Assembly: GCA_021771635.1 (NCBI GenBank)
Contig: JAETOQ010000008.1
Location: forward strand, 1-52,849
Direction of reading: 5' to 3'
Source: Oscillospiraceae bacterium
Lineage (GTDB): Bacteria; Bacillota; Clostridia; Oscillospirales; Oscillospiraceae
DNA: 52,849 nucleotides
Below, in pieces: positions 1 through 46,404 of the stretch (its first letter is position 1; every line of letters starts with the position of its first letter). The notes below the pieces were generated by a model that worked only from the letters and a program-made list of their open reading frames with translations, had not been told where the DNA came from and did no database searches. Position numbers and translations under genes: made by a program.

Positions 1-117
1 TGTGCGCGGGGAACCCAGGAAGGGTGCCCTGCGCTATTCAAATCAACAGATTTCAGAACTTTTTAAAAGTTCTGAAATCTTAAGCAGCTTGTCGAAAAGA
101 CTTTTTCGACAAGCTGG
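1..117. mobile_element. Right part of a hairpin-array element (family B, truncated by the window edge)
   Basis: Non-coding. Three hairpins follow each other: a small one around ACCCAGGAAGGGT (13-25), a long one with a stem of about 16 bp (49-82), and a terminal hairpin at 85-116 whose arms are CAGCTTGTCGAAAA and TTTTCGACAAGCTG. The same order of modules, with different but still pairing arms, occurs at 27705-27919, which also carries the ACCCAGGAAGGGT motif. The terminal hairpin abuts the terminator palindrome at 118-151, just as the other two family B copies abut a palindrome. The left end lies outside the window. Confidence 0.55.
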
Positions 118-12845: not shown

Positions 12846-13889
12846 ATGAGGAAGCGCGTGACCATTCTGGCCCTGGTGCTGTGCCTGACCTTGACCGCCT
12901 GCGGCGGTGGGGAGGACAACCGGGGCCAGACGTCGTTTTTGGGCGCGGCGGCAGGCATTCAGGAGGACGCGGTGCTGCTGACGGTGGACGGCAGGGAGGT
13001 GCCCGCCTGGCGGTATCTGTACTGGCTGGCCTATACCTGTGACCGTGTCAGGGAGCGGTATGAGGAAAACGGCCTGAAGCTGGACTGGGATACGCCCCTG
13101 GGCGGCGGCACACTGGCGGACTATGCCCGGGACCAGGCCCTGGCGGACACGGCCCTGTACGCCACGGTGGAAAACTGGGCGGAGCGGTATGACTGCGGCC
13201 TGACCGGAGAGGATCAAATAGCCCTGGACGAGGACTGGACGGAAAAGGCGGCGGATCACGGAGGCGAGGAGGCCTATCTGGAGATCCTGGCAGACATGGG
13301 GCTGGACCAGGCCCGGGCCAAGGAGCTGTCCGGCGTGGGACAGATGTACGCCAAGCTCTATGCCCTTTCCAACACCGCGGACAGCGCCCTTGCGCCGGAC
13401 CGGGAGGCCCTGGAGGAATTTGCGGCGGAGCAGGGACTGCTGACGGTGGACCGCATCCTGGTCAGCGCCGGAGCGGACAAAGAGGCCGCCCGCCGGCGGG
13501 CGGCGGAGATCTTTTCCCAGCTCAACAGCGCGGCGGACCAGACGGCGAAGTTTACAGAGCTGGCGGCGACGGGAGACGACACGACCGGTCCCCGGACACT
13601 GAGCCCCGGAGACGGTGTGCTGGACACGGCGCTGGAAGAGGCCGCCGGAACACTGGCGGAGGGACAGTGTTCCGGCATTTTGGAGTCCGGCGAGGGCTTT
13701 TCCATCCTGCTGCGGCTGCCCACGGCCCCGGAGTCTGTATCCGCCGGCTATTTTGACCAGCGGCTCCAATCCGCCGCGGAGGGCGCGGCGGTAGAGACCG
13801 CGGAGGAATACGGAAAACTGGATATCGCCGGATTTTACAGATCTCTGCAGGCTGTCCGGGCGGCGGATCATAATACGATTTCTAGATAA
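12846..13889 (+). CDS. PrsA-like peptidyl-prolyl isomerase lipoprotein
   Basis: 347 aa as read. The signal peptide ends in a lipobox (LTLTAC, Cys at about 19), so the protein is probably lipid-anchored outside the membrane. The middle is helical chaperone-like (SurA/PrsA type). Residues about 205-305 resemble a parvulin domain, from VDRILVSAG to GILESGEGFSILLRLP. The likely role is folding of secreted proteins. The gene follows mfd, as prsA-like genes often do in Clostridia. Oddity: the last residues (NTISR) and the stop codon lie inside the terminal inverted repeat of a mobile element that begins near 13872, so the native C-terminus was probably replaced. An upstream in-frame extension is rejected because GGGGGGAGGAGTGGGG lies right before this ATG. 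Confidence 0.8.
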   Translation: MRKRVTILALVLCLTLTACGGGEDNRGQTSFLGAAAGIQEDAVLLTVDGREVPAWRYLYWLAYTCDRVRERYEENGLKLDWDTPLGGGTLADYARDQALADTALYATVENWAERYDCGLTGEDQIALDEDWTEKAADHGGEEAYLEILADMGLDQARAKELSGVGQMYAKLYALSNTADSALAPDREALEEFAAEQGLLTVDRILVSAGADKEAARRRAAEIFSQLNSAADQTAKFTELAATGDDTTGPRTLSPGDGVLDTALEEAAGTLAEGQCSGILESGEGFSILLRLPTAPESVSAGYFDQRLQSAAEGAAVETAEEYGKLDIAGFYRSLQAVRAADHNTISR

Positions 13890-13910
13890 AAAGATTTAAA
13901 AATCTTTTTA

Positions 13911-13933
13911 TGGCGGCGTGAAACGCCGCCGCA
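13911..13933. repeat. Left copy of a 23-bp palindromic direct repeat
   Basis: It is identical to 14152-14174. The core is GGCGGCGT, 3 nt, ACGCCGCC. The two copies bound the 218-bp insert exactly. Confidence 0.85.
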
Positions 13934-14151
13934 GCTTGTCGAAAAACCATTGTTTAGGAAAAAGAGACTTTCCGCGATGCAGGGGAGCACGAGGGGGCAG
14001 CGCCCGCCTCGTGTTGGATCGAATGTCCGCAGCGGACTGCGGCGCAGTCCGTTGCCCGCAAAGCGGGAGATTTTCAAAATGGTGCACATTTTGAAAATCG
14101 GGACATTAGCAGGCTGTCGAAAAAGGCCTCCCGGCCTTTTTCGACAGCCTG
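13934..14151. mobile_element. Family B hairpin-array element, copy nested in family A
   Basis: 218 bp, non-coding. It begins GCTTGTCGAAAAACC and ends TTTTTCGACAGCCTG, an inverted-end pair with consensus close to CAGSYTGTCGAAAAA. Internal hairpins in order: CGGACTGC/GCAGTCCG, CCCGC/GCGGG, GATTTTCAAAATG/CATTTTGAAAATC, and a perfect 18-bp terminal hairpin at 14111-14150. The 215-bp element at 27705-27919 has the same ends, module order and length with different stem sequences. Confidence 0.65.
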
Positions 14152-14174
14152 TGGCGGCGTGAAACGCCGCCGCA
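14152..14174. repeat. Right copy of the 23-bp palindromic direct repeat
   Basis: Exact match to 13911-13933; see there. In family A copy 2 this module occurs once only. Confidence 0.85.
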
Positions 14175-14292
14175 CCTGCGGCGCGCCAAGAAAAGTATTG
14201 ACAACATCCCTGGCGGCTGCGCCGCCGGGCCGCATTCCGCGGCCCCATAAAACGATGGCATCGTTTTATGAAGAATTCGTATAAGGAAATGT

Positions 14293-27665: not shown

Positions 27666-27704
27666 AAGCGCCCCCGCGGGTTCTAAAACCCGCGGGGGCG
27701 CTGT
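27666..27704. repeat. 39-bp palindromic direct repeat, left copy; terminator of the ECF gene
   Basis: The arms AGCGCCCCCGCGGGTT/AACCCGCGGGGGCGCT (16 bp) form a strong hairpin 25 bp past the ECF stop. It is identical over 39 bp to 27920-27958. Confidence 0.9.
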
Positions 27705-27919
27705 GGGCTGTCGATAAACCGGGAAATATTGCGCGGCGGGAAGGAAGATAGTTACAAAAGACTGCGCAGCTCTTGGCGGCTTTGCCGCTTTAGAGCTGCG
27801 GCGTACCCCTTGCGGGTAAACCCAGGAAGGGTGTCTTTCGTTTTTAATCATAAGTTTTTCTGACCTGTTCAAGGCCAGAAAAACTTGCTTCAGCTTGGCG
27901 AAAAATTTTCGCCAAGCTG
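27705..27919. mobile_element. Family B hairpin-array element between palindromic direct repeats
   Basis: 215 bp, non-coding. It begins GGGCTGTCGATAAACC and ends TTTTCGCCAAGCTG. Internal hairpins: GCGCAGCTCT-type (about 27755-27805), TACCC/GGGTA, ACCC/GGGT (the ACCCAGGAAGGGT motif also seen at 13-25), AAGTTTTTCTG/CAGAAAAACTT, and the terminal TCAGCTTGGCGAAAA/TTTTCGCCAAGCTGA. Same ends, size and order as 13934-14151. The terminal stem carries paired changes (TGTCGA/TCGACA there, TGGCGA/TCGCCA here). Confidence 0.65.
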
Positions 27920-27958
27920 AAGCGCCCCCGCGGGTTCTAAAACCCGCGGGGGCGCTGT
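27920..27958. repeat. 39-bp palindromic direct repeat, right copy; terminator of the DUF975-like gene
   Basis: Exact copy of 27666-27704, lying 13 bp past the stop of the minus-strand gene at 27972, so it could terminate that gene as well. Confidence 0.9.
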
Positions 27959-46235: not shown

Positions 46236-46404
46236 CATACTGTTTCTTGATAGAAAGGCTTAAAAGCCTTTTTATTGCGGCGTTACACGCCGCCGCGCAT
46301 ATAGCGCCAAGAAACGTATTGACAATATTCTTGCGGCTGCGCCGCCAGGCCACATTCTGTGGCCAAAATAAAAAGGATAAACCGTTTTATTAAGAATTAG
46401 TATA
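46236..46404. mobile_element. Family A hairpin MITE, copy 2 (uninterrupted)
   Basis: 169 bp. The ends are imperfect inverted repeats: left CATACTGTTTCTTGATAGAA, and right, reverse-complemented, TATACTAATTCTTAATAAAA. Modules: AAAGGCTT/AAGCCTTT hairpin, GCGGCGT/ACGCCGC hairpin, GCGCCAAGAAACGTATTGAC, GCGGC/GCCGC hairpin, GGCCAC/GTGGCC hairpin and a terminal AATAAAA/TTTTATT-type hairpin. Compared with copy 1, several stems change on both arms together (AAAGATTT to AAAGGCTT; GGCCGC to GGCCAC). It ends 30 bp before tdk and may affect tdk expression. Confidence 0.72.

Follow-up and report, generated by a model that had tools for sequence, protein, structure and literature searches.

The window (the whole stretch of 52,849 nucleotides that was analyzed) carries a 220-bp mobile element of gut bacteria, here called type A, at positions 13932 to 14151 on the plus strand. 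Upstream lies a gene with sub-threshold peptidyl-prolyl isomerase matches, preceded by an Mfd/TRCF-like helicase gene; a thiolase-like gene lies downstream. The ends of the element are of the CAGSYTGTCGAAAAA type and read CAGCTTGTCGAAAAA...TTTTTCGACAGCCTG. It starts with CAGCTTGTCGAAAAACC, and its 3′ end is a 42-nt terminal hairpin (14110 to 14151, plus strand) that closes with TTTTTCGACAGCCTG and whose outer arm forms the right inverted repeat. On each side the element is abutted by a 21-bp target hairpin (13911 to 13931 and 14152 to 14172), composed of GGCGGCGT-gaa-ACGCCGCC plus one base at each end and identical in both copies. A first-pass annotation had placed a 218-bp segment between exact 23-bp palindromic repeats. 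The repeats were confirmed, with TGGCGGCGTGAAACGCCGCCGCA at 13911 to 13933 and at 14152 to 14174, and the segment is the same element, but its full length is 220 bp. The duplication measures 21 bp because the last two bases of the exact repeat (CA) coincide with the first two of the element, and the 218-bp figure omits this shared CA. The boundary was set from the consensus end of the family (CAG). As RNA, the element and its flanks are predicted to fold far better than shuffled sequence (z = −12.7). At 220 bp the element is too short for an IS1182 transposase gene, and no IS1182 gene adjoins it within the window.

The element interrupts a host repeat, the MITE of the first-pass annotation (stretch examined, 13880 to 14200), whose flanks match other loci of the genome. 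This host repeat, around 13880 to 13931 and 14152 to 14200 and also at L011 to L018, is a separate multicopy family with hairpins of its own.

Mobility of the 13.9-kb element had been proposed along with the prediction of many copies of about 220 bp with similar ends. The mobility was borne out: such copies were found in the genome and in the genus, and most of those classified sit inside a duplicated hairpin. The window's genome contains eight further matches to type A at 83 to 95% identity, of which two are partial, as well as shorter and more divergent ones. BLAST gave a match in 12 of 60 genomes (own included), all of the same genus, some to the terminal hairpin only. A covariance model of the structured core, R1, matched in 27 of 86 genomes of the genus, again counting its own. 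Across an order-wide sample of 245 genomes, R1 matched only in the window's own genome, in a strictly filtered scan that scored few candidates in each genome and may miss weak relatives. A search of named genomes with an exact pattern returned 56 stretches, from records titled Dysosmobacter, Oscillibacter or Oscillospiraceae. Genome G091 alone has at least 37 type-A matches, mostly of near-equal score, a lower bound from 38 scored candidates. Type A is short, multicopy and without a transposase gene, and 61 distinct copies were classified. A longer variant of 275 to 278 bp, with about 56 extra bp before the terminal hairpin and likewise located between hairpins, was seen at seven loci (L184, L187, L189, L201, L203, L212 and L221). 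Tandem hairpin-element-hairpin-element-hairpin arrays occur at L173 (3680 to 4200, genome G013) and L051 (500 to 1000, own genome), which looks like repeated use of one hairpin or duplication of the unit.

The 61 copies have the core motif and both ends with at most four mismatches, and one script classified them all. The same hairpin was directly repeated on both sides in 42 copies and inversely repeated, with the same stem and a reverse-complemented loop, in 7; the others had different hairpins (6), a hairpin on one side (5) or a contig edge (1). These are the script's counts: by reading, the rows L143, L218 and probably L137, scored as different, have the same hairpin wrongly delimited, the one-sided rows L027 and L034 (second) are mis-paired ends, the inverted row L187 is ambiguous, and L215 (162 bp) is probably mis-ended. 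Degenerate or truncated copies, such as L008 to L010, L025 and L050 to L053, lie outside the set. This classification superseded a first pass over the 56 named stretches (20 duplicated, 28 unassigned); a listing of 41 duplicated rows was picked for having a duplication and is not usable as a denominator. The hairpins vary from site to site, and duplications measured without gaps span 19 to 41 bp. A hairpin scoring at least 9 touched the element in 102 of 121 flanks, compared with 4/120, 10/119 and 5/116 at control positions 70, 140 and 210 nt further out. The pattern, which the first-pass annotation had judged more credible than chance, is by this control far beyond it.

In G091, 17 of 21 copies were direct by script and 16 by reading (L270 has different hairpins); by script, two others were inverted and two different. 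A second copy at L281, outside the script's 21, also reads as direct. Inverted flanking hairpins were seen at L002, L139, L182, L191, L194 and L283; such cases could arise if the template is switched while the gap is filled, or if the loop is inverted afterward. We considered whether the copies with different hairpins represent another insertion mode. Two copies in G091, L270 and L284, have different left flanks and one common right flank, and recombination or mis-assembly between near-identical copies seems the likelier explanation.

Sites without the element were compared with filled ones. At L042 a 31-bp hairpin is present twice; the orthologous loci of three relatives (G007, G028 and G092; 86 to 88% identical) have it once and contain no element. 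The L021 locus is empty in G101 (89% identity) and the L213 locus in G100 (78%), each with a single hairpin of diverged sequence. Within the window's genome, L011 to L016, six of the eight sister-repeat loci sought, each carry a single hairpin, identical or nearly so, and continue into the sister repeat without an element. The second copy of the host repeat in the window (46236 to 46404) had been offered as the empty site; it does have a single hairpin, but one of diverged sequence, and L011 to L016 serve better. Since orthologous loci and sister repeats have one hairpin and no element, insertion evidently duplicates the whole stem-loop. As far as sequence comparison can establish it, hairpin duplication upon insertion is shown by these pairs beyond any reading of the flanks, as is insertion at the hairpin foot with duplication of the entire stem-loop, irrespective of its sequence and length. 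In G064 the terminator at the L021 locus holds, by reading, a different insertion with a type-B-like motif.

The target hairpins usually look like intrinsic terminators. Among the 49 copies with direct or inverted hairpins, 36 had at least 5 T of 8 bases at the outer foot (or A, on the other side), compared with 1 of 49 control positions; the tract was on the right in 24 and on the left in 20. The element ends contribute no T-tract beside the inner hairpin feet, so the T-tract remains with one hairpin copy. That copy would stay a complete, working terminator, and insertion would thus cost the host little. This suggests a way for a transposon to target gene terminators with little harm, leaving terminator and T-tract behind. 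In some copies, L043 and L211 among them, the two hairpins of one copy show paired changes relative to each other, which fits continued selection on pairing.

Autonomous insertion sequences (ISs) of the IS1182 family have the same features. Genome G025 contains IS1182-type genes (NF033551) as fragments at contig ends; the left IS ends read CAGGCTGTCGAAAAAGTC and the right ones CAGGCTGTCGAGAAACCC or CAGGCTGTCGAAAAACCC. Five IS1182 ends in G025 (L070, L074, L077, L078 and L082) read CAGGCTGTCGARAAA, and all five abut a hairpin, although single ends were seen in each case and never both ends of one insertion. Type-A copies of the same genome, for example L024, have ends matching these IS ends, and type A thus has its terminal inverted repeats in common with an autonomous IS1182 relative. 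Genome G106, an assembly of two contigs, contains many full ISs with related ends (CAGCCTGTAGACAAAG). Both ends were recognized at 13 of the 18 loci fetched, and a whole or nearly whole hairpin is directly repeated in 9 of the 13 (L115, L116, L118, L120, L121, L123, L127, L128 and L131); the other four (L124, L126, L129 and L130) lack a second full hairpin. The target duplication of type A resembles that of these nine. The G106 transposase (484 amino acids) is assigned to IS1182 by NCBIfam with 442.8 bits (cut-off, 270) and has DDE transposase domains in Pfam; a PDB sequence search with it returned no match at E ≤ 0.01. Eight plasmid relatives from other genera, at 51 to 60% identity, were hand-picked from 40 of 1831 records. 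Five of them (in Sutcliffiella, Acetoanaerobium, Peribacillus, Lactococcus and Cetobacterium) lie between palindromic direct repeats of 20 to 30 bp; no palindromic direct repeat was seen in the other three. The occurrence of hairpin repeats around plasmid relatives of other genera indicates that this mode belongs to an IS1182 subgroup and not to this genus alone, and with five of eight sampled relatives between palindromic repeats, the behavior is probably wider than the genus. Long direct repeats are listed for IS1182.

As a rule, the target duplication of a transposon covers a few bases, and the geometry of the transposase fixes its length. Type A instead duplicates a whole hairpin, of variable sequence and length (19 to 41 bp), which means that the machinery must read DNA structure; what is duplicated seems to depend on the shape of the target and not on its sequence. 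We favor, at a probability of roughly 0.7, a nonautonomous, MITE-like element that depends on an IS1182-family DDE transposase acting in trans, one that recognizes a hairpin target, usually a terminator, by its structure. IS1182 is the likely mobilizer because the G025 ISs have matching ends beside hairpins and the G106 ISs repeat whole hairpins. The target would be extruded as a cruciform, the two 3′ ends of the element would join at the 5′ foot of each cruciform arm, and filling of the two single-stranded hairpins would leave one full stem-loop copy on each side, as in branch b of Wan et al. (2017).

The core of type A has a structure of its own, an outer hairpin followed by a four-way junction at 13980 to 14112 (plus strand; 123.1 bits with R1). 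It was characterized by covariation in 31 of 36 nonredundant copies, drawn from 49 copies of 218 to 224 bp; five copies (L137, L180, L198, L218 and L219) were left out of the alignment as doubtful. The consensus fold of the 31 copies has 65 pairs, with 98.2% of cells paired. Changes on both sides affected 25 pairs and 105 cells, compared with 24.4 cells after shuffling (none of 500 shuffles reached the observed count); slid controls of the fold gave far lower values. Such changes were found in seven of the eight helices, although relatedness of the copies inflates counts of this kind. The core is strongly covarying, and its fold has been kept by compensatory changes. G-U cells outnumber A-C cells by 128 to 18, with three mostly G-U pairs providing 86 of the 128; among pairs whose commonest form is Watson-Crick, the counts are 42 and 16, from related copies and with no P value attached. 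The G-U excess suggests that the folding strand is the one with the terminal hairpin at its end. A known Rfam family was considered for the core and set aside: Rfam 15 gave no match at gathering score anywhere in the window, and the eight matches to the element region were all sub-threshold (best E, 0.0028).

Since the ends alone should suffice for a plain MITE, the core may belong to the mobility signal or else be an RNA carried as a passenger. The type-A core is absent from the G025 and G106 ISs that were read. It is conceivable, if rather doubtful, that type A is a mobile structured nucleic acid, in which the core fold of one strand, as RNA or single-stranded DNA, is needed for transposition and the transposase measures its target by shape, duplicating exactly one hairpin. 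On this view, recognition of the donor as well as the target would depend on fold and not on sequence.

A less probable rival to the IS1182 reading is movement by a different enzyme, for example a Cas1/casposase-like integrase or a single-strand transposase, the IS1182-like ends having arisen by convergence or capture. The distribution of transposase genes is in keeping with such an enzyme. Matches to the G025-type transposase were found in 6 of 27 carriers of the element and 13 of 59 noncarriers, with no association. No IS1182 match was present in G013 or G008, the window's genome (G000) gave only a weak fragment and no match to the G025-type transposase, and G091 had none despite its many copies; DDE_Tnp_1 likewise had no match in G000, G008, G013, G091 or G101. 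These drafts are 69 to 95% complete, and repeated ISs are easily lost from such drafts. The apparent preference for one folding strand of the core is also what a single-strand life style would allow. Cas1-Cas2 at CRISPR repeats and casposon integration both duplicate a partly palindromic unit of 20 to 40 bp, and unit-insert-unit-insert-unit arrays exist among type A too (L173 and L051). In contrast with those systems, the target sequences of type A vary freely and its ends are IS1182-like. Against a different enzyme, the autonomous IS1182 elements of G025 and G106 have the same end type and duplication mode, as do the five plasmid relatives, and no other enzyme with these ends was found in a search that left Cas1 outside its scope. 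We keep to an IS1182-family transposase acting in trans as the likely mobilizer.

The characterized members closest to this behavior are IS1272 and TnSha1. For IS1272, of the IS1182 family, Wan et al. (2017, PMC5678879) proposed stem-loop-replacing transposition by a 3′-foot pathway in which the stem-loop is lost, and TnSha1 partly deletes its target hairpin (Furi et al. 2016, PMC4923244). Type A resembles both in its IS1182-family transposase (presumed for type A) and in a hairpin or inverted-repeat target of any sequence that is often a terminator (PMC5678879, PMC4923244); target size varies as well, from 21 to 85 bp in model A of Wan et al. (PMC5678879). Unlike type A, which duplicates the whole stem-loop and has no transposase, these two elements delete all or part of it without target duplication. 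Were type A to behave like IS1272, removing the target stem-loop with apparent duplicates arising later, the copies with half a hairpin or a hairpin on one side only would be explained. Most copies contradict this: empty orthologous sites have one hairpin and filled sites two, so that the hairpin is doubled and not removed, and 16 of the 21 G091 copies, probably recent, have two matching hairpins. We regard replacement as very improbable.

Equally little probability attaches to insertion beside terminators in the manner of a retroelement or group IIC intron, with which the terminator targets and the conserved RNA-like core would agree; the inverted-repeat ends, the hairpin on both sides and the lack of an Rfam match at gathering score in the window argue against it. 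Least probable of all is the spread of hairpin-element-hairpin cassettes by homologous recombination, compatible with the copies that have different hairpins on their two sides and with the L270/L284 right flank (as recombination or mis-assembly would give) but contradicted for most copies by hairpins that are site specific and, at the five loci tested, by relatives with a single hairpin of matching type in the corresponding position.

The behavior of type A is best filed as IS1182-type structure-targeted transposition with a nonautonomous and unusually structured passenger. The autonomous IS1182 elements of G025, G106 and the plasmids of five other genera share with it the hairpin or palindromic direct repeats and, within the genus, the end type; they differ in being about 1.5 to 1.6 kb long with a transposase gene. 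MITEPye1 of Paracoccus yeei (PMC11578231) is likewise short and nonautonomous; its inverted repeats are IS1182-like, and a folded RNA is predicted for it. It differs in that its flanks are 4-bp direct repeats and not duplicated hairpins, and it is reported at 1 to 3 copies per chromosome. Whole stem-loop duplication is pathway b of Wan et al. (PMC5678879), drawn there as a hypothetical branch only; the same paper states that Siguier et al. reported palindromic targets of some IS1182 members without detailed data. In the open-access literature searched, judged mostly by titles and the beginnings of abstracts, we found no paper reporting that this duplication had been observed with an IS or MITE. 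The natural insertions described here, together with empty sites in relatives, provide a comparative test of the branch that Wan et al. depicted as a possibility (PMC5678879), and the hairpin-duplicating behavior is open to laboratory test.

The first-pass annotation had placed the 13.9-kb element in one family with an element at 27.7 kb. The latter is real and inserted in the same way: this type-B element (27704 to 27919, plus strand, 216 bp) lies between two 38-bp hairpin copies (27666 to 27703 and 27920 to 27957) that agree in 38 of 38 bases. Another type-B element is truncated by the contig end; its 3′ part occupies positions 1 to 116 (plus strand) and is followed by a terminator-like hairpin at about 117 to 150; a single contig thus contains three such elements. 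Fifteen type-B copies with direct hairpin duplication, mostly 127 to 163 bp long, were identified in the window's genome; in addition, one copy (L164) is inverted, two (L151 and L160) have a hairpin on a single side, and four (L157, L162, L166 and L167) reach a contig end. Types A and B have the end type, the terminal hairpin and the target mode in common, and each lies between palindromic flanks, as the first-pass annotation held, but they have different cores. In four type-B loci and in L075, nothing matched the type-A covariance model at E ≤ 10. Within the window, besides 123.1 bits on the type-A element, it gave 30.2 bits (E = 9e-07, rough calibration) on the minus strand at 27841 to 27958, a hairpin-rich stretch that includes the end of the type-B element and its flanking hairpin; we considered this match as a sign of a common core and took it for a chance likeness of hairpins. 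Judged from their sequences, the two types do not look like one family, and a shared core is not supported. For type B, a fold was computed with RNAalifold.

At L075 (contig C48 of G029, about 1240 to 1641), the left part of a type-B element is flanked by a terminator hairpin on one side and, on the other, by the left end of an IS1182 transposase gene, inside which the contig ends. A B-like leader may therefore travel with an autonomous IS.
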